Of a stretch of DNA of 40,808 nt, positions 9,406-37,078 are shown piece after piece. The stretch is from Accumulibacter sp. (lineage in GTDB: Bacteria; Pseudomonadota; Gammaproteobacteria; Burkholderiales; Rhodocyclaceae), in NCBI GenBank assembly GCA_017302455.1, contig JAFLDO010000042.1:1-40808 (forward strand), in the 5' to 3' direction. Every line of letters starts with the position of its first letter. Within the stretch, counting starts at the first letter, position 1. The position numbers were made by a program, and so were the translations under genes. The notes under the pieces are model-generated. The model had not been told where the DNA came from. It did not search any database and was given only the letters and a program-made list of their open reading frames with translations.

Positions 9406-9747
9406 ATGAACACCGAACCGTCGCTTGCCCTCGAACACTGCCGTCCCTTGCGCGGCAGCCAGCACTTGCTTGATCCAGGCCAGGCAAATGCCCTGCTCGG
9501 ATCGCTACCCGGCTGGAGCATTGCCGACACCGGCGTTCTCCGGAAGGATTTCACCTTTCCCAGCTATGCTGCCACGCTGCTCTTCGTCAACACCGTGGCC
9601 TGGCTGGCTGAACGTCAGAACCACCATCCCGACCTGGAAGTCGGCTACGGTCGGGTCAGGGTAAGTTACAGCACGCATGACGTCGGCGGCCTGTCGCGAA
9701 ACGACTTCATCTGTGCTGCCCACGTCGAGGCACTGGCAGGAACTTGA
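9406..9747 (+). CDS. phhB: 4a-hydroxytetrahydrobiopterin dehydratase
   Basis: The 113-residue pterin-4a-carbinolamine dehydratase regenerates the pterin cofactor after aromatic amino acid hydroxylation. The family core ERQNHHPDLEVGYGRVRV and the later THDVGGLSRND are both present. It begins 23 bases after the protease gene, and its stop overlaps the rsgA start, so the genes are probably cotranscribed. No phenylalanine hydroxylase gene is in the window. Confidence 0.93.
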   Translation: MNTEPSLALEHCRPLRGSQHLLDPGQANALLGSLPGWSIADTGVLRKDFTFPSYAATLLFVNTVAWLAERQNHHPDLEVGYGRVRVSYSTHDVGGLSRNDFICAAHVEALAGT

Positions 9748-10610
9748 GACGCGCGGGCACCGTCGTCGCCGCGTATGGCCGACAGTATCGGGTGGAGTTG
9801 GCCGACGGTACGACGCTGCTCTGCTTTCCGCGCGGCAAGAAGAGCGAACTCGCCTGCGGCGACCAGGTGATCGTGCAGCCGACAAATGCCGCCCAAGGCG
9901 TAGTCAGCTCATTCGAGCCGCGCAAGACCCTGCTCTACCGCTCCGACAAGTTCAGGCAAAAACTGATTGCCGCCAACGTCACACAGATCGTCATCGTCGT
10001 CGCCACCGAGCCGCCATTTTCCGATGAGTTGCTCACACGTTGCATCGTCGCCGCGGAAACCCAGGGGATCCGGGTCGTGATCGTGCTCAACAAGTGTGAT
10101 CTTGCCGGTCTTGTGGCCAGCGCCGCGAGGACACTGGCGCCATTCGAGAAACTGGGGTATCCGGTGCTGAAGCTCTGCGCCCGCACCGAGAGCGCGCTCC
10201 TGCTGCCTTGTCTGGAAGAGCAAACGAGTTTGTTGATCGGCCAGTCCGGAATGGGCAAGTCGACCCTGATCAATGCCCTGATTCCCGGCGCCAAAGCGTC
10301 AACCTGCGAGATCTCGCAAGCCCTCAACGCGGGCAAGCACACCACGACACACACCAGACTCTATCACCTTGACGCCAGATCCGCGCTGGTTGACTCACCG
10401 GGGCTGATGGCTTTCGGCCTGCGCCATCTGTCGGCGGACGAGCTGGCGCAGGCGTTCATCGAGTTCCGCCCGCTGCTCGGCCGATGTCGTTTCCGCGACT
10501 GCCGCCATAATCGGGAACCGGACTGCAGCCTCCACGCGGCACTCGACCAAGGCGACATCGACCCGCGGCGCTTCGCCGCATTCCGCTCACTCTGTGCCGA
10601 AATCGGCTAA
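9744..10610 (+). CDS. rsgA: Small ribosomal subunit biogenesis GTPase RsgA
   Basis: The 288-residue circularly permuted GTPase acts late in 30S assembly. It has an N-terminal OB fold (about 1-60), G4 motif NKCD before the P-loop, Walker A GQSGMGKST, DSPG as G3, and a C-terminal zinc finger (CRFRDCRH...C). The permuted order G4-G1-G3 is diagnostic. The most common P-loop in the family is SGVGKS; here it is SGMGKS, a mild change. The start is a TTG that overlaps the phhB stop (TTGA), and there is no good ATG nearby. Translational coupling with phhB is likely. Confidence 0.95.
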   Translation: MRRAGTVVAAYGRQYRVELADGTTLLCFPRGKKSELACGDQVIVQPTNAAQGVVSSFEPRKTLLYRSDKFRQKLIAANVTQIVIVVATEPPFSDELLTRCIVAAETQGIRVVIVLNKCDLAGLVASAARTLAPFEKLGYPVLKLCARTESALLLPCLEEQTSLLIGQSGMGKSTLINALIPGAKASTCEISQALNAGKHTTTHTRLYHLDARSALVDSPGLMAFGLRHLSADELAQAFIEFRPLLGRCRFRDCRHNREPDCSLHAALDQGDIDPRRFAAFRSLCAEIG

Positions 10611-10628
10611 CACGACAGGACATCTCCG

Positions 10629-10907
10629 ATGAGCGACATCAACATTCGCCGCCAACATGGCAAGACCCGCGCCGACGCCCGCAGCTCAGCTGAACACATG
10701 GCCTCCGAGTTGAAGGAGGAGTTCGACCTGGACTACGCCTGGAACGGCGATGTCATGCGGTTCAAGCGGCCCGGGCTTACCGGCGAACTGTCGCTCGACG
10801 ACAGCGAAGTCACCCTCCACATCCACCTCGGATTCCTGCTCTTTGCGCTCAAGCCGACCATAGAGCGTGAGGTTCACAGATTCTTCGACGAGAACTTCCC
10901 GACCTGA
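10629..10907 (+). CDS. Polyhydroxyalkanoic acid system protein (PHA_gran_rgn family)
   Basis: The 92-residue protein begins MSDINIRRQHGKTRADAR and matches the small 'putative polyhydroxyalkanoic acid system' family found next to PHA granule genes. The sequence shows an alpha/beta pattern with LDYAWNGDVMRFKRPGLTGEL in the middle and a helical C-terminus ending FFDENF. Its biochemical role is not established. It starts 18 bases after rsgA, so it may be read with that operon. It opens a stretch of storage-lipid genes. Confidence 0.82.
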   Translation: MSDINIRRQHGKTRADARSSAEHMASELKEEFDLDYAWNGDVMRFKRPGLTGELSLDDSEVTLHIHLGFLLFALKPTIEREVHRFFDENFPT

Positions 10908-10940
10908 ACACGCCGGAGCGCAAGCGCGGCGGGAAGGGCG

Positions 10941-11201
10941 TCAACCGCCGAGCAGCCTGTCGACGAGGGAGACGTACTCGTGCATCGCGTCGTCGGAAGC
11001 TGTTCCCTTGAGCGCAGCCCAGGCATCGTACTTGGCGCGACCAACCATGTCGGTAAACCCGGGCCGTCGGCCGTCTACATCACCGTCGCTCGCCTGCTTG
11101 TAAAGCGCGTAAAGCCTGAGCAAGGTGGCATTGTCCGGACGCTCGCGCAAGGTCTTGGAACGGGCAACAGCCGTCTCGAACTGGGCGTGTAGATCGCTCA
11201 T
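10941..11201 (-). CDS. Acyl-CoA-binding protein
   Basis: The 86-residue protein is a four-helix acyl-CoA-binding protein, the usual length for the family. The motifs LRLYALYKQASDGDV and RAKYDAWAALKGTASDDAMHEYV are the canonical ligand-binding region, with the Tyr and Lys residues that contact the CoA headgroup. Such proteins buffer long-chain acyl-CoA in the cytoplasm and hand it to enzymes. It is encoded divergently from the wax ester synthase with 79 bases between, so the two may share control. That supports a role in feeding acyl-CoA to that enzyme. Confidence 0.93.
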   Translation of the reverse strand: MSDLHAQFETAVARSKTLRERPDNATLLRLYALYKQASDGDVDGRRPGFTDMVGRAKYDAWAALKGTASDDAMHEYVSLVDRLLGG

Positions 11202-11280
11202 GAAAAACTCCTCCGGTCGATGATGCGATGAAATGACTTGCTATTATATGAGCTTGCCATTTCCTCCGGGAGCAGACGCC

Positions 11281-12774
11281 ATGAGTTCGCGCGAACCGAT
11301 GTCCCACGTCGACACGGCCTGGCTGCGCATGGACCGGCCCGAGAACCTGATGCAGATCCTCGGTGTGATGCTGTTCAGGGGCCGCATTGACGCTGAGCGC
11401 TTCAAGCGTACGGTCGCCCTGCGGCTGCGCCGATACCGACGCTTCCAGCAGATCGCGATACTCGATGCGGAAGGTGCGTGGTGGGTCGATGATCCCGACT
11501 TCGACATCGATGCACACGTCCGTCATTCGCTGCTCCCCGCCCCCTGCGGCAAAGCGGAGTTGCAGAAGTTCGTTGCCGAGATGGCCAGCACGCCGCTCAA
11601 CCCGGCGCGACCGCGCTGGGAATTCAACCTCGTCGACACCGCCAAAGGCAACTCGGCACTGGTCGTCCGCATCCACCACGCGATTGCCGACGGTATCGCC
11701 CTGATTGGCGTCATCAACTCGCTCACCGACGAGCGCGCCAACGCTCGCGAGGATGGCGGACCGGAGGCGGAGACGGACGCCAGCGCGCTTGCCGCGAGAG
11801 ACACTGACGAGCATCAGGGCGACGCTGGCGACCCGTTCTGGCGATTGGTTCTCGAACCGCTCAGCGACGTCGCCCTGGCCTCGATCCGCGTGGGCGGCCA
11901 TCTCTGGGGTCACTACCTCGGCTTGCGTCAGGATCCGGGAACGCTGCGCGATTACGCGCGCTTTGCCGGAGCGATCGCCCAGGAAGTCGGCAAACTCGCG
12001 CTGCTTCCCAGCGACAGCGTCACACGCTTCAAAGGCAAGGCCGGCACGGTCAAACGCGTGGCCTGGTCCGAGCCCATCTCGCTCGCAGACATCAAGGCCG
12101 TCGGCAAAGTTCTCGGCTGCTCGGTGAACGACACGCTGCTCTCCTCGGTTGGCGGCGCCCTGCGTAGCTACCTCGCGGCGCAAGGCGATGCGGTGGGCCG
12201 GGCCGAGATTCGCGTCATGGTTCCGGTCAATCTGCGGACAGCCAGCGACATCGGCGAGCTCGGCAACCATTTTGGCCTCGTCACCCTCGAACTACCGATC
12301 GGTATCGAGAATCCCCTCGCCCGGCTCTACGCGACACGCGCCAGGATGGCAGCATTGAAGGGCTCGCATCAGGCGATGCTGACCTTCTCGCTCATCGGCG
12401 CGGCAGGCATGGCGCCAAAATTCGTGCAGGACAAGGTACTCAACCAACTTGCGGACAAGACGACAGCGGTGATGACCAACGTCCCCGGCTTTCAGCAGGG
12501 CCGCTTCTTTGCCGGCAGCCGGATCGAGCAACAGATGGTGTGGGTTCCGCAAGCGGGCGAAATCGGCATGGGCGTCAGCATTCTTTCCTACGACGGCCGC
12601 GTGCAATTCGGACTGATCACCGACAAGAACATGGTCGATGACCCCGAGAAAATCGTTGGCCGCTTTGCCGACGAGTTCGAGAAACTCCTCTGGCTGGTCC
12701 TTCTCGAACCCTGGGATCGGCTTGGCTGGCCGGAGGCAGTGGAAGAAGACATGCTCGCCCTGGCCGGAGCCTGA
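11281..12774 (+). CDS. Wax ester synthase / acyl-CoA:diacylglycerol acyltransferase (WS/DGAT)
   Basis: The 497-residue acyltransferase joins acyl-CoA to a fatty alcohol (wax ester) or diacylglycerol (triacylglycerol). The catalytic motif HHxxxDG is intact as HHAIADG at 132-138; the N-terminal MSHVDTAWLRMDRPENLMQ and the middle SVNDTLLSSVGGALRSYL (NDxxL motif) are family hallmarks. The ATG at 11281 is preferred; an upstream ATG at 11248 is possible. The length is slightly above the 450-480 usual for the family. Divergent from the acyl-CoA-binding protein and 4 kb from a fatty acyl-CoA reductase, it is the central enzyme of the inferred storage-lipid locus. Which product it makes cannot be told from sequence. 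Confidence 0.93.
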   Translation: MSSREPMSHVDTAWLRMDRPENLMQILGVMLFRGRIDAERFKRTVALRLRRYRRFQQIAILDAEGAWWVDDPDFDIDAHVRHSLLPAPCGKAELQKFVAEMASTPLNPARPRWEFNLVDTAKGNSALVVRIHHAIADGIALIGVINSLTDERANAREDGGPEAETDASALAARDTDEHQGDAGDPFWRLVLEPLSDVALASIRVGGHLWGHYLGLRQDPGTLRDYARFAGAIAQEVGKLALLPSDSVTRFKGKAGTVKRVAWSEPISLADIKAVGKVLGCSVNDTLLSSVGGALRSYLAAQGDAVGRAEIRVMVPVNLRTASDIGELGNHFGLVTLELPIGIENPLARLYATRARMAALKGSHQAMLTFSLIGAAGMAPKFVQDKVLNQLADKTTAVMTNVPGFQQGRFFAGSRIEQQMVWVPQAGEIGMGVSILSYDGRVQFGLITDKNMVDDPEKIVGRFADEFEKLLWLVLLEPWDRLGWPEAVEEDMLALAGA

Positions 12775-12839
12775 CGACCCCGCGGGCACCCTGTCCAACC
12801 CGGCGCGGCAGCGGACGGCGCGCACGCGCGGGGTGACAG

Positions 12840-13613
12840 TCAGTCCGCCAGTTCTTCCTTGGCCGCTTCGACGTCGAGACGTTCCATGGCATCCATCGGG
12901 GTAAACGCTGCGGCTTCCTGGTAGAGACGCTCGGCGTCCTTCATTTTCGCCTTGCCGAACATCATCACCAACGCGTTCGCATACTCGATGCGCGTGATCG
13001 CCGAGTCGGGATTGAGCTTCAGGGCGGTTTCGAGAAGCTCGTTGCCGGTAGTCTTCTTGGCCCCGTAGGTCAGCCCACCGACCAGCGCCCCAACCTTGTC
13101 GATTACTTCGGCGTGATAGGCACCGAGCGCCACATGCGCGTCGGCGTGTCCTGGTTCGATCTCCAGCGCCCGCGTCAGGCTGTTCTTGATCTTGCCACCG
13201 AGACCCTGGGCGAGCGCCTTGACCACCGAGATGCTCTGGCTGTAACGACCCAGCGCAAAAGCGTGGAGATACCAGGCGTTGGCGTCGTGCGGCGTCTTTT
13301 CGTGTTGCTCCTCGCAACGCTGAGCGACCTCCATGAGTAGACTGCGTTTTCGCTCGTCGTCGCTCTCCAGGTAATTGGCATAGATGGTCGCCGCCTTGTT
13401 GGCCACGTTGTAACCGGCGATACCGCAGGCGAGACCTGTTTCGACCGCCTTGCCGAACTCCCCGGCGTGATAGCTACGCCATGCATCCTGCACCTTCGCA
13501 TCCTCGGGAAACGGCTCACAGTCGCCACGATGCAGACGCGCCCAGTTCTTCTGCAGAGCCGCACCAGGGTAGGCAAAACCCGTATCGGAATAGGGAAATT
13601 TCTTCCAGGCCAT
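12840..13613 (-). CDS. TPR-like helical protein of unknown function
   Basis: The 257-residue protein has no signal peptide and is mostly helical, with TPR-like units such as ANAWYLHAFALGRYSQSI, GHADAHVALGAYHAEVI and DSAITRIEYANALVMMF. TPR proteins act as scaffolds, so a structural or docking role in the cytoplasm is plausible, but no specific function is known to me. It converges on the wax ester synthase gene (65 bases apart) and lies just downstream of the TetR gene on the same strand, 50 bases away. The two may form an operon. Confidence 0.75.
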   Translation of the reverse strand: MAWKKFPYSDTGFAYPGAALQKNWARLHRGDCEPFPEDAKVQDAWRSYHAGEFGKAVETGLACGIAGYNVANKAATIYANYLESDDERKRSLLMEVAQRCEEQHEKTPHDANAWYLHAFALGRYSQSISVVKALAQGLGGKIKNSLTRALEIEPGHADAHVALGAYHAEVIDKVGALVGGLTYGAKKTTGNELLETALKLNPDSAITRIEYANALVMMFGKAKMKDAERLYQEAAAFTPMDAMERLDVEAAKEELAD

Positions 13614-13663
13614 TGAATATCCTTAATATTTTTAACAAGAACAAAGTGCAACGCAGAGTCCCA

Positions 13664-14308
13664 CTAGCCGACGTACTCGCCTGACAATTTGTCGAGCAGG
13701 CCTTTCGCCTCGCCCAGCAGAAATGGCGACAACATGGCCATCGCCTGATACACGCCGCGCCCGAGACGGCCGCTTTCGACCTTGCCGCGCGGGTCGCAAG
13801 CGTACTCGAACGACAGCCAGTAGGTCGCGATCACCGCCATGTTCGTTGCCAGCGCGCGCATCTGGTCAGTGGTAGCACGCATCGCTCCTGCCGTCACCAA
13901 ACCTTCACACAGGCTCGTCGCCGTTCTCACCTTGTGCGCCAGGATCTGCTTGAAGTGAATTTCCAGGACGCGATTGCGAGTCAGCAGATCGTTCAGGTCG
14001 CGGTAGAAGAAGCGATACTTCCAAATCTGTTCGAAGAGCAGGTGCAGGAACAGCCAGATGTCCTCGACGTTCGCCTGGCGGCGGGTCGGCGCGGCAAGTG
14101 TTTCCTCGATTTCCCGCTCAAAGGAGGCAAAGATCGCCTCGATGATCTCGTCCTTGTTGTGGAAGTGGTAATAGAGGTTGCCCGGGCTGATGTTCATCTC
14201 ATCCGCAATGACCGTGGTCGTCACGTTCGGCTCACCAAAGTCGTTGAACAGCCGCAGACTGGTTTCGATGATTCGCTCGCGAGTTCGCCGCTTTGGTTTC
14301 CCTTCCAT
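13664..14308 (-). CDS. TetR/AcrR family transcriptional regulator
   Basis: The 214-residue repressor-type regulator has an N-terminal helix-turn-helix (about 10-56: RERIIETSLRLF, ADEMNISPGNLYYHFHNKDEI) typical of TetR, followed by a helical ligand-binding domain. The start at 14308 (MEGKPKRRTRE) is chosen because the extra upstream residues are not conserved in this family. Many TetR proteins of this kind sense acyl-CoA or other lipids. Its place between the lipid acyltransferase, the TPR protein and the patatin suggests that it controls these genes. Both the target and the ligand are inference. Confidence 0.9.
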   Translation of the reverse strand: MEGKPKRRTRERIIETSLRLFNDFGEPNVTTTVIADEMNISPGNLYYHFHNKDEIIEAIFASFEREIEETLAAPTRRQANVEDIWLFLHLLFEQIWKYRFFYRDLNDLLTRNRVLEIHFKQILAHKVRTATSLCEGLVTAGAMRATTDQMRALATNMAVIATYWLSFEYACDPRGKVESGRLGRGVYQAMAMLSPFLLGEAKGLLDKLSGEYVG

Positions 14309-14406
14309 CGACTCTCTCTCCTTGGCCGTCGTCGGCGACCAGCATAGCATTGCTGATCAGGTCAGGGAATGCCAGCCAGAAGGATGGGGTTGTCGAGCTG
14401 GCCGGA

Positions 14407-15624
14407 TCACGCCCGCCGGGTCTGCAGCCAGACCTCGAGATCGCGCAGCGACGAATCCAGCGCGCTGGCGCTGCTCGCCAGATCCGGGCGGCGTTTGCGC
14501 GACAGCAGCGAACGACTGTGGTCCTTCAGCACCCCGAGGTTGAGGTGGATACCGTGGCGCTCGAGGATCGGCCTCAGTTCATGGCGACGCCGGTAGAGAT
14601 CGCTGCGCGTGCGCTGGTAGGCATGCTCGCAAAGGCGGCTGCGGCCACGATAGCTGAATACATTGGTGAAGAACATCGCCGCATCGTCGCGCGTCGGCTC
14701 GAACAGGATCACGTCCTTGCCTGCGAACTCAAGCCGGTAGCGGTCCATGCCGGTGCGCATTCGCGAGTGGATAATGGCGCGAAAGGTCTGCGCCAGGACG
14801 ACCGGCAGCCCTCCATCTACCAGATGCGCAGGAGCCGATGTCGGTTTTTCCTGCGGCGGACGTTGGGCCGCCAGGCGGGCATCAAAGGGTACCAGCGGGT
14901 TGAGGCAGATCACCAGGTCGGCGCCCTCGTGCAGCGCCACGGACGCATGCAGGGTCTTGATCAAGGCACCGTCAACAAAATAGCGCTCGCCGATGCGCAC
15001 GGGCGGGAACAAGCCGGGCAAGGCGGCGCTCGCCTGCACGGCAACCGAAATCGGCACGTCATCATGCCCCGGCGAACCGAAGGCCACCGACTCGCCGGTG
15101 TCGAGATCAGTCGCGACGATGAACAGACGGTGTTTGAGCTGCCGGAAATCGTTGCATCGGCCGCCCGTCGAAAACAGCTTCCGAAGTAGTTGATCGATTC
15201 CGGCACTGTTGAAAACCCCGGCTGGGATCGCATGGCTGAGGCCCTGAAAAGCCTCGACGAAACGCAGATGCCAAGGGTCGGACAGATACTGCCGGAGCGA
15301 GGACCAGAACAGCACCGGCAGCGATAGCGCACGCCGGAAGTACTCACCGAACGCTGGACGGAGGAGCATTTCCGGATCGAAAACCTCGTCCGTATCATTC
15401 TCCACGAGCATCCGCGCCAGCGTCGCTGGCCCCAGCCCGTTGGCCACGGCGGCCGAGATGAAGGCACCGGAACTGACCCCGACGTAAATGTCGAAAGCGC
15501 TGAAGTCCACGCCATCGAGTGCCTCGGCCAGCGCCGCCATTGCCCCGACTTCGTAAATCCCACCCACCGGACCACCGCCGGCAAGCGCCAGCCCGACTTT
15601 CGAACATCTGGTTGCAGCAGCCAT
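14407..15624 (-). CDS. Patatin-like phospholipase / lipid hydrolase
   Basis: The 405-residue protein has the patatin fold signatures: oxyanion-hole glycine motif GGGPVGG at 16-22, nucleophile GVSSG at 49-53 (Ser51) and the dyad aspartate in DGA at 218-220. All catalytic elements are present, so it should be an active lipid acyl hydrolase. The C-terminal 150 residues are charged and not assigned. It has no signal peptide, so it probably works in the cytoplasm. Next to a phasin gene and upstream of the TetR gene on the same strand, it could mobilise stored triacylglycerol, wax ester or phospholipid; that role is inferred. Confidence 0.9.
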   Translation of the reverse strand: MAAATRCSKVGLALAGGGPVGGIYEVGAMAALAEALDGVDFSAFDIYVGVSSGAFISAAVANGLGPATLARMLVENDTDEVFDPEMLLRPAFGEYFRRALSLPVLFWSSLRQYLSDPWHLRFVEAFQGLSHAIPAGVFNSAGIDQLLRKLFSTGGRCNDFRQLKHRLFIVATDLDTGESVAFGSPGHDDVPISVAVQASAALPGLFPPVRIGERYFVDGALIKTLHASVALHEGADLVICLNPLVPFDARLAAQRPPQEKPTSAPAHLVDGGLPVVLAQTFRAIIHSRMRTGMDRYRLEFAGKDVILFEPTRDDAAMFFTNVFSYRGRSRLCEHAYQRTRSDLYRRRHELRPILERHGIHLNLGVLKDHSRSLLSRKRRPDLASSASALDSSLRDLEVWLQTRRA

Positions 15625-15873
15625 GAAGCCCTCTCGTCTGGGAAAGCCGTGCCGGCGGCGGCATCACAGCCACGCCCGGCAGCATCGTCTTGGCGCGTGT
15701 CGGCATGCTCACATGCCACTGTCGGCAGCGCCGTGCGCCGCCCGATGGAGATCCTCAGGCCCCCGCACAACCCGCACCCGCTGTGTCGCCGGCGCAAGCG
15801 TCAAGCATGACGCGCTGGCCACCTTTGCGACACAAGCCGTGCGGGTCGGCAAGCGGGTCTCTGGACGCCAGGA

Positions 15874-16443
15874 TCACTCGCTGGTCTGCGGCAGGGTGCT
15901 CAGCACATCGGCCGGCGTCACCGGCGGAACCGGCTTCGCGGCGGCAGGTTTCCGGGCCGCTGGTCTGGCAGCAGCGGGCTTGGCGACGGGCTTGGCGGCC
16001 ACCGACTCAGCCGCCGCCGCAACATCCTTTGCGGCTGGCTTGGCAGTGGTCTTGGCCACTGCCTTCCCCTCCGTCAGTGCCTGCACCGCGGCGCTCAGTT
16101 CGACTACGCGCTTTGACAGGCTGTCGATATCCTGCTTGCTCGGTACGCCGAGGCTCCCCAAGGCACGCGCGACGCGATCCTCGAAAACCTGCTCGAGGCG
16201 ATCCCAGGTCCCCGCCGCCTTGCCGGCAACCTGTGCGATCTTCTCGTCGGTCATCTGGCGCGTCTTCGACTGAATGCTCTCGCCCTCCTTGACCAGCGCG
16301 TCGAATACCTTGCCGCCTTCCTCCTGCGCCTTGGCAAAGGCACCGAGACCGGCCAGCCAGATCTGCTGTGCGGATTCCTTGACCGTCGATGCCAGTTGGT
16401 TTTCCGTCAGCCCACCAGCCAATTCTTTGAGTTTCTTGCCCAT
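15874..16443 (-). CDS. Phasin, poly(hydroxyalkanoate) granule-associated protein (PhaI/PhaF-like)
   Basis: The 189-residue phasin has an N-terminal amphipathic helical domain (about 1-110: ASTVKESAQQIWLAGLGAFAKAQEEGGKVFDALVKEG) and an Ala/Lys/Pro-rich tail (about 125-180, repeated AKPAA and PAAKP units) like the nucleoid-binding tail of PhaF. The start at 16443 (MGKKLKEL) is placed six bases after AAGGAG; an ATG two codons earlier overlaps that site. Phasins coat storage granules, and the basic tail can bind DNA to spread granules at division. It diverges from the fatty acyl-CoA reductase gene, so it may coat wax or triacylglycerol bodies as well as PHA. Confidence 0.9.
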   Translation of the reverse strand: MGKKLKELAGGLTENQLASTVKESAQQIWLAGLGAFAKAQEEGGKVFDALVKEGESIQSKTRQMTDEKIAQVAGKAAGTWDRLEQVFEDRVARALGSLGVPSKQDIDSLSKRVVELSAAVQALTEGKAVAKTTAKPAAKDVAAAAESVAAKPVAKPAAARPAARKPAAAKPVPPVTPADVLSTLPQTSE

Positions 16444-16519
16444 TTTCATCTCCTTGAACGTCGTGATCGAAAGGTCAACAAGTTTTTCGCTTGCCCTAGA
16501 AAGCCAGTGTAGTGACAAT

Positions 16520-16563
16520 ATCTAGAGGACGCACACTAAAGGTCTGGGTAACCGCCTCTAGAT
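16520..16563. promoter_or_regulatory. Perfect 9-bp inverted repeat between phasin and acyl-CoA reductase genes
   Basis: ATCTAGAGG at 16520-16528 and CCTCTAGAT at 16555-16563 are exact inverted copies separated by 26 bases. The element lies in the 180-base divergent region, 77 bases from the phasin start and 61 bases from the reductase start. There is no T-tract, so it is more likely an operator than a terminator. The nearby TetR protein is a candidate binder. Confidence 0.45.
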
Positions 16564-16623
16564 TGCGGCAGTCTACCAAAAACATGCTACCGGGGAGATG
16601 ACCATGAATTCGAGGAGACAGCA

Positions 16624-18609
16624 ATGAATTACTTCGTGACCGGCGCCACCGGTTTCATCGGCAAGCGGCTTGTCGCAAAGCTGTTGACCCGCCCCGATGC
16701 CGTCGTGCATTTCCTGACACGCGCCGTCGAGCTACCGCGACTCCAGGAATTGTACGAGTACTGGGGCACCGACGCGACGCGCGTCATCCCGATCGTCGGC
16801 GACTTGACGCAACCTGAGCTTGGCGTGGCCAAAGCCGACGTCGAGAAGCTCAAAGGCACCATCGAGCACTTTTTCCACCTCGCGGCCATCTACGACCTCA
16901 AGGCAAGCGCCGAAGACCAGCAGCGGGCCAACGTGGACGGTACCCGCAACACGGTTCGCCTGGCCGAGGAAATCGGCGCCCGACACTTTCACCTGGTCAG
17001 TTCGATAGCATCTGCCGGGCTGTTCGAAGGACTGTTTCGCGAAGACATGTTCGAAGAGGCGGAGAACCTCGACAACCCCTACTTCCGCACCAAGCACGAC
17101 TCGGAAGGAATCGTGCGCAAGGAGTGCAAGGTGCCGTGGCGCATCTTCCGTCCGGCCATCGTCGTCGGCGACTCGCGTACAGGGGAAATGGACAAGATTG
17201 ACGGCCCCTATTACTTCTTCAAGCTGATCCAGAAAATGCGCAGGATGTTCCCGTCGTGGATGCCGACCATCGGCATCGAAGGCGGTCGCATCAATGTCGT
17301 ACCGGTGGACTTCATCGTCGCCGCCATGGACCACATTGCCCATCTGGAGAACGAAGACGGCAATTGCTTCCACCTCACCGACCCGACGCCGATGCGCGTC
17401 GGCGACTTGCTCAATACTTTCGCGCGTGCGGCACACGCGCCGGAAATGGCGATGCGCGTCAATGCCGCATTGCTTGGCTTCATTCCGCGCTCGATGCGCA
17501 AGGCGATGTTTGCCCTGACGCCGGTTCGCCGCATCCGCAACGCGGTGATGAAGGATCTCGGCCTGCCCGACGACATTCTCGACTTCGTCAACTACCCGAC
17601 CCGCTTCGATTGCCGGGAAACGCAACGCGCGCTCAAGGGCACCGGCATTGCCGTACCACCGCTGGACAGCTACGCCTGGCGTCTGTGGGACTATTGGGAG
17701 CGCCACCTCGACCCGGATCTGTTCATCGATCAGACGCTACGCGGCCAGATCGAAGGCAAGGTCGTTCTCGTCACCGGTGGCTCCTCCGGGATCGGCAAGG
17801 CTACGGTCCGCAAGATGGCCGAAGGTGGCGCGATCGCCGTCACCATCGCCCGCGATGCGCAGGCCCTCGACGAAACGCGACGCGAGTTCGAAGCAAACGG
17901 TCTGCGCCTGATCACGCATGCGGTTGACGTTGCCAACCCCGAACAATGTGCGGCCTTCGTCAAGCTGATGACCGAGGAGTATGGCGGCGTCGACATCCTG
18001 GTCAATAACGCCGGGCGATCGATTCGCCGTGGTATCGAGAACTCATTCGATCGTTTCCACGACTTCGAACGGACGATGGAAGTCAATTACTTTGGCGCCT
18101 TGCGCCTGACGATGGGCTTCCTGCCCGGAATGATCGCCAAGCGCAAGGGACACGTCATCAACATCTCATCGATCGGCGTACTGACCAACGCCCCGCGCTT
18201 CTCGGCCTATGTTGCCTCGAAAGCGGCGATGGATGCCTGGGCACGCTGTGCCGCGTCCGAGTTCGCCGATCGCGGCATCGAGTTCACGACGATCAACATG
18301 CCACTCGTCAAGACGCCGATGATTGCGCCGACCAAACTCTATGACCAGGTGCCGACGCTGTCTCCGGACGATGCGGCCGACATGATCGTCGAAGCGATCA
18401 TCCACAAGCCGGTGCGCATCGCCACCAGGCTGGGGATCTTCGGCGCCCTGCTCCACTCGCTGACGCCGAAAGCGGCCCAGATCATGATGAATACCAGCTT
18501 CCGGATGTTCCCGGACTCCAGCGCCGCCGCGCAGAAGAAACCGGAGTCCGCCGAGCAAACCGCTGACCAGATCGCTTTCTCGCAGATCATGCGCGGCATT
18601 CACTTCTGA
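16624..18609 (+). CDS. Two-domain fatty acyl-CoA reductase (alcohol-forming, Maqu_2507-type)
   Basis: This 661-residue protein carries two SDR domains. The N-terminal extended SDR has TGATGFIG at 6-13 and a Tyr153-x3-Lys157 pair; the C-terminal classical SDR has VTGGSSGIG at 383-391, NNAGRSIRR and Tyr529-x3-Lys533. Length, domain order and many signature stretches (YFFKLIQKMR, GRSIRRGIENSFDRFHDFE, IGVLTNAPRFSAYV, RMFPDS) match the Marinobacter enzyme Maqu_2507, which reduces acyl-CoA through the aldehyde to fatty alcohol with NADPH. The C-terminal half resembles the Acr1 acyl-CoA reductase. It diverges from the phasin gene and would supply alcohol to the wax ester synthase. I rate the family assignment as strong. 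Confidence 0.92.
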   Translation: MNYFVTGATGFIGKRLVAKLLTRPDAVVHFLTRAVELPRLQELYEYWGTDATRVIPIVGDLTQPELGVAKADVEKLKGTIEHFFHLAAIYDLKASAEDQQRANVDGTRNTVRLAEEIGARHFHLVSSIASAGLFEGLFREDMFEEAENLDNPYFRTKHDSEGIVRKECKVPWRIFRPAIVVGDSRTGEMDKIDGPYYFFKLIQKMRRMFPSWMPTIGIEGGRINVVPVDFIVAAMDHIAHLENEDGNCFHLTDPTPMRVGDLLNTFARAAHAPEMAMRVNAALLGFIPRSMRKAMFALTPVRRIRNAVMKDLGLPDDILDFVNYPTRFDCRETQRALKGTGIAVPPLDSYAWRLWDYWERHLDPDLFIDQTLRGQIEGKVVLVTGGSSGIGKATVRKMAEGGAIAVTIARDAQALDETRREFEANGLRLITHAVDVANPEQCAAFVKLMTEEYGGVDILVNNAGRSIRRGIENSFDRFHDFERTMEVNYFGALRLTMGFLPGMIAKRKGHVINISSIGVLTNAPRFSAYVASKAAMDAWARCAASEFADRGIEFTTINMPLVKTPMIAPTKLYDQVPTLSPDDAADMIVEAIIHKPVRIATRLGIFGALLHSLTPKAAQIMMNTSFRMFPDSSAAAQKKPESAEQTADQIAFSQIMRGIHF

Positions 18610-18628
18610 CACGAGCCCACCGTACTTC

Positions 18629-19048
18629 ATGACTACCCCCACCCCTGGCCCTTTGCCTGGCCAAAACGCCCGCCAGCTATTGAAGCAACTTCAGGAGCAG
18701 TTCCCGGTCTTCCGCGACTGCCTGCCGCTGGCGATCGGTATCGACAAGCAACTCCTGGCGCGGCTGCCCGACCTCAATCGCAAGGAGTTACGGATTGCAC
18801 TGGGGATCCATACGCACTCCTTGCGCTACCTCAAGACGACCGAAAAGGCGACCGCCAGGGTCGACCTCGACGGCAACCCCGCCGGCGAGATCATGGCCAC
18901 ACACCGTACCCATGCCGCCGAGCTGGTCAAGGACCGTTTGAAGAAACAGGCGGAACAGCGCAGAACGCAGCGCGAGGCCGAGGCGCTGGCGCGTCAGCAC
19001 GCGCAGAAACTGGGACAGCTCGTCGAGAAGTTCAGCCGCAGCAAGTGA
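18629..19048 (+). CDS. ProQ/FinO-domain RNA-binding protein
   Basis: The 139-residue protein has the FinO/ProQ core: FPVFRDCLPLAIGIDKQLL, RKELRIALGIHTHSLRYLK and the following AxARVDLDGNPAGEI. A lysine/arginine-rich C-terminal helix (about 100-139) follows. Such proteins bind structured small RNAs and mRNA 3' ends and act as RNA chaperones. It begins 19 bases after the fatty acyl-CoA reductase and could be read from the same promoter. It is shorter than E. coli ProQ and lacks the C-terminal Tudor-like domain, as in many betaproteobacteria. Confidence 0.88.
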   Translation: MTTPTPGPLPGQNARQLLKQLQEQFPVFRDCLPLAIGIDKQLLARLPDLNRKELRIALGIHTHSLRYLKTTEKATARVDLDGNPAGEIMATHRTHAAELVKDRLKKQAEQRRTQREAEALARQHAQKLGQLVEKFSRSK

Positions 19049-25334: not shown

Positions 25335-26753
25335 ATGGAAACTCGACTGTTACGTTATGAAACTCTGGCCGAAGATCTCGGCGGCATCATCGTCGCCGGC
25401 AACCTGCGGCCCGGCGAACGTCTGCCTTCGGTACGACGCCTGTCGCGCGAGCGGCGACTGTCGGTATCGACGGTGCTGCAGGCGCTGCGGCAACTCGAAG
25501 ATCGAGGCCTCGTCGAGGCCAGGCCGCAATCGGGGTACTTCGTTCGCCATGCGGCCACGCGGCGCCCGTCGCCCAACGCGCGGTCGACGCCCGACGAGCC
25601 GGTGCCGGTGGACGTCAGCCAGCGGCTGATGCGGGTGCTGCAAAGCGGTATGCAGCCCGGCGTCGCCCCGCTGGCCGCCGCCCTGCCTGCCTCTACCCTG
25701 TTGCCGCTGGCGGCCCTGCAGCGGCTCTACGGGGGTGTCGCGAGGCGCCATCCCCGGCTGCTCGAGGGCGGCAGTCACATCAACATGGACGAACCGGCGC
25801 TGGTGCGGCAGTTGGTGCTGCGCTCAGTGGCCTGGGCCGGACCGCTGGCCGCCGACGAGTTCGTGATCACCAACTCCTGCACCGAGTCCCTCAGCCTTTG
25901 CCTGCGCGCCGCGACTCGCTCGGGCGACACGGTGGCGGTCGAATCGCCCGCCTACTACCTGATGTTGCAACTGATCGAGACCCTCGGGCTGAAGGCCCTC
26001 GAGATCCCGACCGATCCGCGCCATGGCTTGTCGATCGAGGCGCTCGATCTCGCTACCCGCGACGGCAAGGTGACCGCCTGCCTGCTGGTACCCAACGCCA
26101 GCAATCCGCTTGGCAGCATGATGCCCGACGAGAACAAGCGCCGCTTGGCCAAGCTGACTGCCGAACGCGGTGTGGCGGTGATCGAGGATGACATCTACGG
26201 CGATCTGCACTTTGGCGCCGAGCGGCCCTGGCCGATCAAGGCTTTCGACAGGACAGGCAATGTCATGCTCTGCTCCTCGTTCTCCAAGTGCCTGTCGCCG
26301 GCGCTACGCATCGGCTTCGTCGCCGGCGGCCGCTACCGGCCGCAGATCGCCCTGCAGAAGACGATCACCAGCGGCGGCACCAATTCGATCACCCAGCTCG
26401 TCCTCGCCGAATACCTTGAATCCAGTGCTTCCGAGCGTCACCTGCGTGGTTTGCGGCGCACCTACGAGCGCCAGGTCGAGGCCATGATCGCCGCCGTAAC
26501 GCGGCATTTTCCCGCCGCCACACGCGTCACCGAGCCTCAGGGAGGTTTCGTCCTTTGGCTCGAGCTACCCGACGACATCGACACCACGGCCCTCCACTCC
26601 CGGGCGATCGCCGCTGGCGTCGCCTACGTGCCCGGCGAACTCTTTTCCGCCAGCGGCATGTACCGGAACTGCCTGCGCCTGAACTGCGGCAACCCGCACA
26701 CGCCGGAGATCGATGACGCGGTACGGCGCCTGGGCGCATTGATGGCGCCCTGA
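25335..26753 (+). CDS. MocR/GntR family regulator with aminotransferase domain
   Basis: The 472-residue protein fuses an N-terminal GntR winged helix (about 1-72: LRPGERLPSVRRLSRERRLSVSTVLQALRQLEDRGLVEARPQSGYFV) to a fold-type I aminotransferase domain. The PLP-binding lysine is Lys318 in SSFSKCLSPALRIGF, with NASNPLG (254-260) and DDIYGD as cofactor contacts. All key residues are present, so it should bind PLP. MocR proteins use PLP or an amino compound as signal. It diverges from a DUF2917 gene across repeats that look like its operator, so that gene is the likely target. The effector cannot be predicted. Confidence 0.92.
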   Translation: METRLLRYETLAEDLGGIIVAGNLRPGERLPSVRRLSRERRLSVSTVLQALRQLEDRGLVEARPQSGYFVRHAATRRPSPNARSTPDEPVPVDVSQRLMRVLQSGMQPGVAPLAAALPASTLLPLAALQRLYGGVARRHPRLLEGGSHINMDEPALVRQLVLRSVAWAGPLAADEFVITNSCTESLSLCLRAATRSGDTVAVESPAYYLMLQLIETLGLKALEIPTDPRHGLSIEALDLATRDGKVTACLLVPNASNPLGSMMPDENKRRLAKLTAERGVAVIEDDIYGDLHFGAERPWPIKAFDRTGNVMLCSSFSKCLSPALRIGFVAGGRYRPQIALQKTITSGGTNSITQLVLAEYLESSASERHLRGLRRTYERQVEAMIAAVTRHFPAATRVTEPQGGFVLWLELPDDIDTTALHSRAIAAGVAYVPGELFSASGMYRNCLRLNCGNPHTPEIDDAVRRLGALMAP

Positions 26754-35485: not shown

Positions 35486-37078
35486 TCAGCAAGAGCGAAC
35501 CGCATTGCGACCGTCTTCCTTGGCCCGATAGAGCGCCGTATCTGCCCGCCGCACTGCGCTTTCCTCATCCTTGTCCTCGCCCAGCGCCATGGCTACGCCG
35601 ATACTTAAGGTGACTTGCCTTGCCCCCGGGAAAGCTTGCTGGGCAACCGAGCTCCTGACGATCTCGGCTATCGTCAGTGCTCCCTCGGCATTCGTCTCCG
35701 ACAGGATGGCCAGAAATTCTTCCCCACCATAGCGGGCGACGAAATCGGTTTGTCGCAATGAGGCTGTGAGGACAGTTGCCATGTGCCGAAGCACTTGATC
35801 GCCTGTTTCGTGGCCATAGGTGTCGTTGATCTCCTTGAAGAAATCGATATCCATGAACAGAACGGCATAAGGATTGCTCGACCGCTGCAAGCGTAGAAAT
35901 TCCAGTCGTAGCCTCTCATTGGCTGACTTGCGGTTTTGCAGGCCGGTCAGCGCGTCCACCTGGGCAAGTTGTGCGAGTTCCCGATTGGCGGCCAGCAAGG
36001 CGGCGGTGCGTGCTGCCAACAATTCGCCGGCTTGACCGATCGCCGCCGCAAGCTCGGCCGACTCCTGGATAGACACCTCGGGAACAGGCACCAACTGCCC
36101 CTTGCCCAGGGCTACTGCCGGTGCGGTGAGTGCGCGCACCGAAGCGGCTATTTTCCGCCCCGCCATCCACGCCAAACCGAGCCCAATGACGAGCAAGGTC
36201 GCCAGGCCCAAGGACAACCAGGTCATCGTGTGCATCAGATCGCGTTCGAGAATCTCCCGTGGAATGCCGATGCCGACACTCCAGCCGGTGACCGATGAGC
36301 GACTCCAGACGGACAAGGTCGGAATTCCCTCGCGTGTGACTGTCTTCATCGAGCCTTCCAGGGCCTCGCCGATTCGCTGGATGTACTCGAGCGTTCCTTT
36401 CCGGCCGACGAACTCGTCCGGCGCGTGAGTCCGCGCGGCGATCGTGCCGGTGTTGTCGAATATCGCCGATACCCAGCCCGGCGGAAAGCGTTGCGCGGCG
36501 AGGATAGCGTTGAAATCATCCGGCACCAGGCCGATGCTCAAGACATACGCCACCTTGCCGTCGAGGATCACCGGCAAGTCAATGCTCACTACAGGCTTGT
36601 GCAGCACCCCACCGATGTAGACTTCCGAAATCACCGACTGGCCGGTCGCCAGGACTCGACGGAGAATCTCCGGATTCCCGTGGCGTGGCAAGGGTTCGCC
36701 GAATTCCCGCAGCGTATTGACCAGTTGCTGGCCACCCTCGTCGCTGAGCACGACATTCATGCCGACTTTCGTCACTGCGACGACCTCGCGCGCCCGTCGA
36801 TGGAATCCCGCCAGATCACGCCGGGCAAGCACACTGGACGTGGAGAGGACCTCGCCGACGGTCCTGGCCTTCAACAATTGGCTATCGACGGCCTGAACCA
36901 TCGCACGCGCCGTGGCGATCATGTCCCTTTCCAGTTGAGCGCGGCCGTTCAGGTACTCGCGCGCGAACAAGATCGCGACACCGAGTATTCCGGGCAGCAG
37001 GCAAGCGAGAACCAGCCAGAGGAGCACCGTGCCGATTCGCCAGCGGGAAGTGAAGCCGTACGCCCGAACGGTCTTCAT
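35486..37078 (-). CDS. Membrane diguanylate cyclase with Cache sensor domain
   Basis: The 530-residue protein has a transmembrane segment (about 16-40), a periplasmic single- or double-Cache sensor region (about 45-280, with VSIDLPVILDGKVAYVLSIGL), a second membrane helix (about 286-310), a HAMP-like linker and a GGDEF domain (about 370-530). The active-site motif is GGEEF at 451-455, and an RxxD inhibitory site (RQTD, 442-445) sits five residues before it. All residues for c-di-GMP synthesis and feedback inhibition are present. The start overlaps the end of an upstream frame (ATGA at 37075-37078). Confidence 0.93.
   Translation of the reverse strand: MKTVRAYGFTSRWRIGTVLLWLVLACLLPGILGVAILFAREYLNGRAQLERDMIATARAMVQAVDSQLLKARTVGEVLSTSSVLARRDLAGFHRRAREVVAVTKVGMNVVLSDEGGQQLVNTLREFGEPLPRHGNPEILRRVLATGQSVISEVYIGGVLHKPVVSIDLPVILDGKVAYVLSIGLVPDDFNAILAAQRFPPGWVSAIFDNTGTIAARTHAPDEFVGRKGTLEYIQRIGEALEGSMKTVTREGIPTLSVWSRSSVTGWSVGIGIPREILERDLMHTMTWLSLGLATLLVIGLGLAWMAGRKIAASVRALTAPAVALGKGQLVPVPEVSIQESAELAAAIGQAGELLAARTAALLAANRELAQLAQVDALTGLQNRKSANERLRLEFLRLQRSSNPYAVLFMDIDFFKEINDTYGHETGDQVLRHMATVLTASLRQTDFVARYGGEEFLAILSETNAEGALTIAEIVRSSVAQQAFPGARQVTLSIGVAMALGEDKDEESAVRRADTALYRAKEDGRNAVRSC

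Follow-up and report, generated by a model that had tools for sequence, protein, structure and literature searches.

The closest described counterparts of the locus considered here are Burkholderiales scaffolds from coastal sediment in which genes for an acyl-CoA-binding protein (ACBP) and a wax ester synthase/diacylglycerol acyltransferase (WS/DGAT) are neighbors; two of these scaffolds also encode a short-chain dehydrogenase/reductase (SDR) resembling MAQU_2507 (59.2% and 58.8%) and a protein of the polyhydroxyalkanoate (PHA) system, and another encodes a phasin (PMC10351704, 2023). About 59% to MAQU_2507 is reported for betaproteobacterial relatives, and the available text of that study proposes wax-ester or triacylglycerol storage for such Burkholderiales (PMC10351704). 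Fatty alcohol formation by related reductases has been shown in Mycobacterium tuberculosis and, as cited in the accessible part of the same report, in Marinobacter; the mycobacterial FCR1, 40% identical to MAQU_2507, forms aldehyde and alcohol in Escherichia coli, and wax ester is lost in knockouts (PMC3522743). On the regulatory side, the TetR-like PhaD of Pseudomonas putida activates a phasin operon, according to the portion of the source at hand (PMC9049629). Here we describe a locus combining these components in Accumulibacter, the bacteria behind biological phosphorus removal, to which wax ester, a storage fat, is not usually credited. The locus spans positions 10629-18609 of a stretch of 40,808 nucleotides (the window), which constitutes contig JAFLDO010000042.1 (C64) of assembly GCA_017302455.1, a genome of 4.93 Mb in 126 contigs. 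Its gene content, conserved order, partner genes across the order and a shared promoter-like element suggest, with a probability that we put at roughly 0.75, that it is a wax-ester synthesis and droplet regulon.

Gene content and enzyme families

A first-pass annotation had placed an ACBP, a WS/DGAT, a TetR regulator, a patatin lipase, a phasin and an alcohol-forming fatty acyl-CoA reductase within 8 kb. A family scan with Pfam and NCBIfam profiles, covering the ten genes from 9744 to 19045, recovered all six, each scoring above its family cut-off, among eight genes between 10629 and 18609; the remaining two, which code for a PHA_gran_rgn protein and a tetratricopeptide repeat (TPR) protein, belong to the cluster as additions to that list:

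10629..10907, + strand: PHA_gran_rgn protein, PF09650/TIGR02610 (91.3 bits Pfam, 81.4 bits NCBIfam)
10941..11201, - strand: ACBP, PF00887 (97.2 bits)
11233..12774, + strand: WS/DGAT, TIGR02946 (364.8 bits); alternative start ATG 11281
12840..13613, - strand: TPR protein, hit by weak TPR models only and by no NCBIfam profile
13664..14350, - strand: TetR regulator, PF13972 (149.9 bits); alternative start ATG 14308
14407..15624, - strand: patatin-like lipase, PF01734 (93.9 bits)
15874..16518 as called, - strand: PF05597 phasin (132.8 bits against a gathering cut-off of 28.8)
16522..16539, unstranded: 18-base palindrome [CT]TAG-N10-CTA[AG], core of a conserved stretch, about 39 bases long, at 16504-16542
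16624..18609, + strand: two-domain fatty acyl-CoA reductase of the PRK07201 type, NF005539 (1018.1 bits)

Head-to-head pairing, also noted at the outset, applies to ACBP and WS/DGAT, whose called ORFs are 31 bases apart, and to phasin and reductase, likewise 105 bases apart as called, while the phasin, patatin, TetR and TPR genes all lie on the minus strand. The called phasin start is a TTG inside the conserved promoter block, and an ATG at 16449 or 16443 is the likelier start. The cluster is preceded by an rsgA gene and followed by a gene for a ProQ-domain protein.

The WS/DGAT matches TIGR02946 over the whole protein (cut-off 309.95) as well as PF03007 (120.2 bits) and PF06974 (122.7 bits), and resembles solved WS/DGAT structures (7nxg, 9.5e-26; 6chj, 3.6e-24). 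Its catalytic motif HHAIADG, of the HHxxxDG type, is intact at residues 148-154 of the ORF, as had been reported, and is accompanied by ND at 299. The reductase matches NF005539 over residues 1-661, against a cut-off of 549, and comprises two SDR domains in a single chain (NAD_binding_4 at 5-235 and adh_short at 379-569), with cofactor and catalytic motifs present in both (GATGFIG, Y153xxxK157, NNAG and Y529xxxK533). The patatin likewise retains the residues credited to it, Ser51 in GVSSG and Asp218 in DGA, and the ACBP motifs YKQA and KYDAW are intact. The earlier proposal that the locus provides all steps from acyl-CoA to wax ester or triacylglycerol is not supported for triacylglycerol, since the scanned set of ten genes contains none of the Kennedy-pathway genes GPAT, AGPAT and PAP; the search did not extend to the rest of the genome.

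Conservation of gene order

Reductase matches were found in all 28 genomes of the genus Candidatus Accumulibacter, the 27 others being 82-95% identical, and 25 of the 28 are full length. The match stops at residue 562 in G008 and is split across two contigs in G017; in G007 (L031, L032) the gene is spread over two frames and contains a TGA, reflecting either decay or an assembly error. Among the 25 congeners with enough upstream flank (G002 and G009 were dropped because of contig ends), the order phasin-patatin-TetR-TPR beside the reductase is kept without exception, and PHA_gran_rgn is in place in 22, WS/DGAT in 20, ACBP in 19 and all seven genes in 19. The comparison with related genomes advised in the first-pass annotation thus places the order well beyond the genome of the window, and its conservation in 25 of 25 congeners implies that the gene grouping exceeds chance.

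Outside the genus we assembled 85 non-redundant loci, with L123, L124 and L139 placed with Accumulibacter, and L111-L120 left out of both counts (the majority come from genomes already present in the genus sample; L118-L120 are uncounted). At the 72 loci where 8.5 kb or more of upstream sequence precede the reductase (13 of the 85 were dropped), the phasin is in place at 64, TetR at 55, TPR at 55, patatin at 46, WS/DGAT at 32, ACBP at 23, PHA_gran_rgn at 22 and all seven at 12; as these loci were chosen by reductase similarity, these proportions do not describe the order as a whole. Searching named records with the reductase revealed the cluster in some relatives, for example Azonexus, Dechloromonas and Sulfuritalea; a Propionivibrio locus has the reductase and the ProQ gene only. 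The TPR protein of 12840-13613 adjoins TetR in all 25 congeners with flank and at 55 of the 72 other loci. One uncultured Rhodocyclaceae genome (L119) carries an inversion: its TetR-TPR-WS/DGAT segment is flipped with respect to patatin, phasin and reductase.

Partner genes of two phasin families across Burkholderiales

Co-occurrence was assessed in a sample of 300 genomes spread evenly over the order, with the genome of the window included, at E 1e-90 for the reductase, above the family cut-off for PF05597 and at E 0.001 for PF09361, a phasin family used as a control. Carriers number 40 for the reductase, 43 for WS/DGAT, 46 for PF05597, 201 for PHA synthase and 198 for PF09361 (196 over cut-off). 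WS/DGAT is present in 40/40 genomes with the reductase versus 3/260 without it, and a PF05597 phasin in 43/43 genomes with WS/DGAT versus 3/257 without it. The three genomes with WS/DGAT and no reductase (G109, G183, G215) each carry PF05597. Those with PF05597 and no WS/DGAT are G254, G307 and G317; the G307 contig ends 0.3 kb past the phasin match, so that only G254 and G317 are clear cases, and weaker PF05597 matches in G163 and G190 fall below the cut-off and were not counted. Tallied by genus without the genome of the window, 19 genera have both reductase and WS/DGAT, 2 have WS/DGAT alone and 112 have neither; for PF05597 and WS/DGAT, 21 genera have both, 1 has PF05597 alone and 111 have neither. 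Both tallies involve the same 12 families. The association is also physical: at a distance of 12 kb or less, a PF05597 match accompanies 33 of 40 reductases and a WS/DGAT match 29 of 40, and 47 of 61 PF05597 matches have a match to either enzyme within the same distance.

The control family behaves differently: PF09361 was found in 196 of 201 genomes with PHA synthase and in 2 of 99 others. Nine genomes in this sample, from other genera of the family to which Accumulibacter belongs, lack reductase, WS/DGAT and PF05597, and all nine have PHA synthase and a PF09361 phasin. Across the order, then, the PF05597 phasin tracks WS/DGAT and PF09361 tracks PHA synthase, a split that we claim for the order only.

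A palindromic element shared by two unlinked loci

The gap between phasin and reductase holds a block with little variation across the genus, and within it the palindrome [CT]TAG-N10-CTA[AG]. Since the called TTG start of the phasin falls inside the element, the scanned regions were extended by 75 bases. The palindrome was found in 27 of 27 congener gaps (32 matches in 4.8 kb), and no match lies in the 302.6 kb that make up the rest of these loci; the sole match anywhere in the window is the one at 16522-16539. Beyond the genus, where nine of the 85 loci had no usable gap and were dropped, it occurs in 42 of 76 phasin-reductase gaps, with 49 matches in 16.7 kb versus 19 in the remaining 1.35 Mb.

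The genome of the window contains three WS/DGAT copies. The second, on contig C48 (L191, 5879-8114) and unlinked to the cluster, is paired head to head with another PF05597 phasin gene (phasin2), and a LysR gene adjoins the pair. Over their aligned parts the phasins of the two loci are 34.6% identical and the WS/DGATs 23.9%. The sole palindrome match in this 14 kb stretch again lies before the phasin and is oriented as it is in the window. We fetched the second locus for 20 congeners (G001, G005, G007, G015, G017, G018 and G027 were left out) and found phasin2 in 17, all of which have a longer form of the element (seven substitutions were allowed, a limit reached in three of the 17) and 15 of which have the strict palindrome. 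The retention of the element while the phasins drifted to 35% identity argues that it is used, and the sites at the two loci may be descendants of one duplicated promoter. In G016, G022 and G024 phasin2 was not found, nor was either form of the element. These same three genomes (L047, L048, L085; L204, L207, L208) lack WS/DGAT and ACBP in the cluster, as if these genes and the second-locus phasin had been lost together; G017 and G027 likewise lack the WS/DGAT and ACBP of the cluster. The third WS/DGAT (C34; L192, 5502-7025) has the highest family score of the three, lies near a response regulator and a histidine kinase and has no accompanying phasin; neither the 14 kb around it nor the next 20 kb contains the element.

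Fourteen other stretches of the genome of the window (249,185 bases), including those around PHA synthase and PF09361 genes, contain no palindrome. In 20 further phasin stretches from the order sample (250 kb), the palindrome is present in 12 and absent from eight, and 12 of the 14 matches, by our reading of the positions, lie directly before a PF05597 phasin.

A TetR-family protein accompanies the PF05597 phasin in the window and in 25 of 25 congeners, and its nearest solved chains are the unnamed TetR proteins 3nnr and 3rh2. Where at least 5 kb upstream is available, TetR is present at 33 of 35 loci with the element and at 24 of 32 without it (p 0.039, ignoring kinship). The TetR of the cluster is the natural candidate for the reader of the palindrome.

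A proposed wax-ester storage system and its alternatives

Starting from gene families, motifs, synteny, co-occurrence and the conserved element, all of which are directly established, we propose the following system. The two-domain reductase would convert long-chain acyl-CoA to fatty alcohol, which WS/DGAT, encoded in the cluster and by the second copy elsewhere, would esterify with another acyl-CoA brought by ACBP. The resulting wax ester would gather in droplets, with the PF05597 phasin as their coat. The patatin would probably hydrolyze the stored ester and may release its chains; this turnover role, like the joint function of the locus, is an inference. Phasin, patatin, TetR and TPR genes probably form one transcript starting back to back with the reductase, and the palindromic element would join both loci into a single regulon, probably read by the TetR of the cluster. 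The earlier suggestion that wax-ester synthesis is joined here to granule proteins is borne out by the synteny, by the co-occurrence of reductase, WS/DGAT and PF05597, and by the promoter-like element shared by two unlinked loci.

Several observations weigh against this proposal. All of the evidence consists of genes, their order, their co-occurrence and a conserved element. The sampled genomes are related, so that Fisher values overstate their independence. The element was not found in the gap between ACBP and WS/DGAT (0 of 16 Accumulibacter regions, 0 of 27 others), implying that the cluster's own WS/DGAT is not directly under it. That gene is missing in 5 of 25 congeners, though every one of the 28 genomes has at least one WS/DGAT somewhere, and outside the genus it is in place at only the 32 of 72 loci given above. 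In a class-wide sample of 133 genomes, WS/DGAT is over cut-off in eight, PF05597 in six and both in five, so that PF05597 is present in only 5/8 WS/DGAT genomes; outside the order the figures are six, four and three, that is, 3/6. The remaining difficulties concern PHA: PF05597 phasins such as PhaF and PhaI of Pseudomonas bind PHA, and PHA synthase matches of the full-length type number three in the genome of the window, which also encodes two PF09361 phasins. The phasin, the PHA_gran_rgn protein and TetR might serve PHA granules, with the wax-ester genes as neighbors sharing only a regulation by carbon surplus. Such an arrangement would fit the listing of PF05597 and PF09650 among PHA granule phasin families in the accessible part of a review, a legend of which assigns PhaP1 of R. 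eutropha to PF05597 (PMC5658603), the activation of phasin genes by the TetR-like PhaD in the available account of P. putida (PMC9049629), and the presence of PHA synthase in 46 of 46 PF05597 genomes of the order sample. It would also fit G254 (L232) and G317 (L234), where a PF05597 phasin is followed by a TetR gene in genomes that have neither WS/DGAT nor reductase; a search for the element at these stretches found none, and this pair is possibly a bare ancestral or PHA-serving module. On the other side, among the 158 PHA-synthase genomes without WS/DGAT, 155 also lack PF05597 and 154 carry PF09361, the element was not found in four stretches of the window's own genome around PHA synthase and PF09361 genes, and none of the genome's four PhaC_N matches, the link looked for between the PF05597 phasin and PHA genes, lies on the contig of the window. 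We hold such a PHA-directed role to be unlikely.

Triacylglycerol could alternatively be the main product, with WS/DGAT acting as a diacylglycerol acyltransferase and the reductase meeting another need. The name WS/DGAT covers both activities, and an ACBP adjoining WS/DGAT has been suggested to help triacylglycerol accumulation (PMC10351704). Wax ester is nevertheless the likelier product because the reductase never occurs without WS/DGAT in the 300 genomes, and the ten genes scanned at the locus include no Kennedy-pathway gene; a triacylglycerol system appears to us slightly less credible still than a PHA-directed one. Equally, the wax ester or fatty alcohol might serve the cell envelope or stress survival rather than a carbon store, given that wax esters made through related reductases are tied to lower envelope permeability and dormancy in M. 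tuberculosis, in the part of that report available (PMC3522743). Here a phasin of the granule-coat type lies back to back with the reductase in 25 of 25 congeners and shares its strand run with a lipase gene, which makes an envelope function the least probable of these alternatives.

Taking wax-ester storage as the preferred explanation, a broader claim can be framed: that the PF05597 phasins of Burkholderiales are wax-ester droplet coats mislabelled as PHA proteins, that with TetR and the palindromic operator they form a wax-ester regulon, and that Accumulibacter as a genus stores, in addition to polyphosphate, glycogen and PHA, a fourth reserve which is left out of phosphorus-removal models. 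In this full form we see the claim as evenly poised between standing and falling. Were it true, carbon and reductant balances for a key organism of enhanced biological phosphorus removal would overlook a storage pool, one that would matter in the anaerobic feast phase as the conversion of acyl-CoA to alcohol consumes reductant. It would also amount to a testable reassignment of one phasin family in one bacterial order, and would provide a short DNA element usable to find wax-ester regulons in other genomes.

Other genes in the window

Elsewhere in the window, and outside the finding, 25335-26750 encodes a GntR-aminotransferase regulator (MocR-like) and 35489-37078 a diguanylate cyclase of the GGDEF type that matches Cache weakly.

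Comparison with known systems

The cluster as such is not new, its parts having been described already (PMC10351704). It shares with the Burkholderiales scaffolds an ACBP adjoining WS/DGAT, a MAQU_2507-like SDR and a phasin; unlike the present cluster, the scaffolds are presented, in the section of that account on clusters, with no mention of TetR, patatin or TPR genes, and its available text includes neither Accumulibacter nor a co-occurrence test nor a promoter element and reads the phasin as part of PHA metabolism. In the open-access literature, the combination of "Accumulibacter" and "wax ester" was met only in a reference list; the pairing with "fatty acyl-CoA reductase" was not searched. 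Like the wax-ester pathway of Marinobacter, as far as the available sources describe it, the locus pairs the same type of two-domain alcohol-forming reductase (MAQU_2507) with a WS/DGAT that it would feed (PMC10351704, PMC3522743). The mycobacterial FCR1/Rv3391 is comparable as a reductase of about 650 residues required for normal wax-ester synthesis under stress, but it is actinobacterial and no phasin cluster is described in the accessible part of that report (PMC3522743). The closest regulatory parallel is PhaD with phaI/phaF in P. putida, where a TetR-like regulator and phasin genes likewise form one control unit; according to the portion of that source at hand, the unit serves medium-chain-length PHA, whereas its partners here are a reductase and a WS/DGAT, and the likeness to PhaD is at the level of the TetR family (PMC9049629). 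As far as the open-access literature shows, the present analysis adds to these systems the genus-wide presence of the cluster in Accumulibacter, the division of two phasin families across the order according to their partner pathway and the element shared by the two loci.

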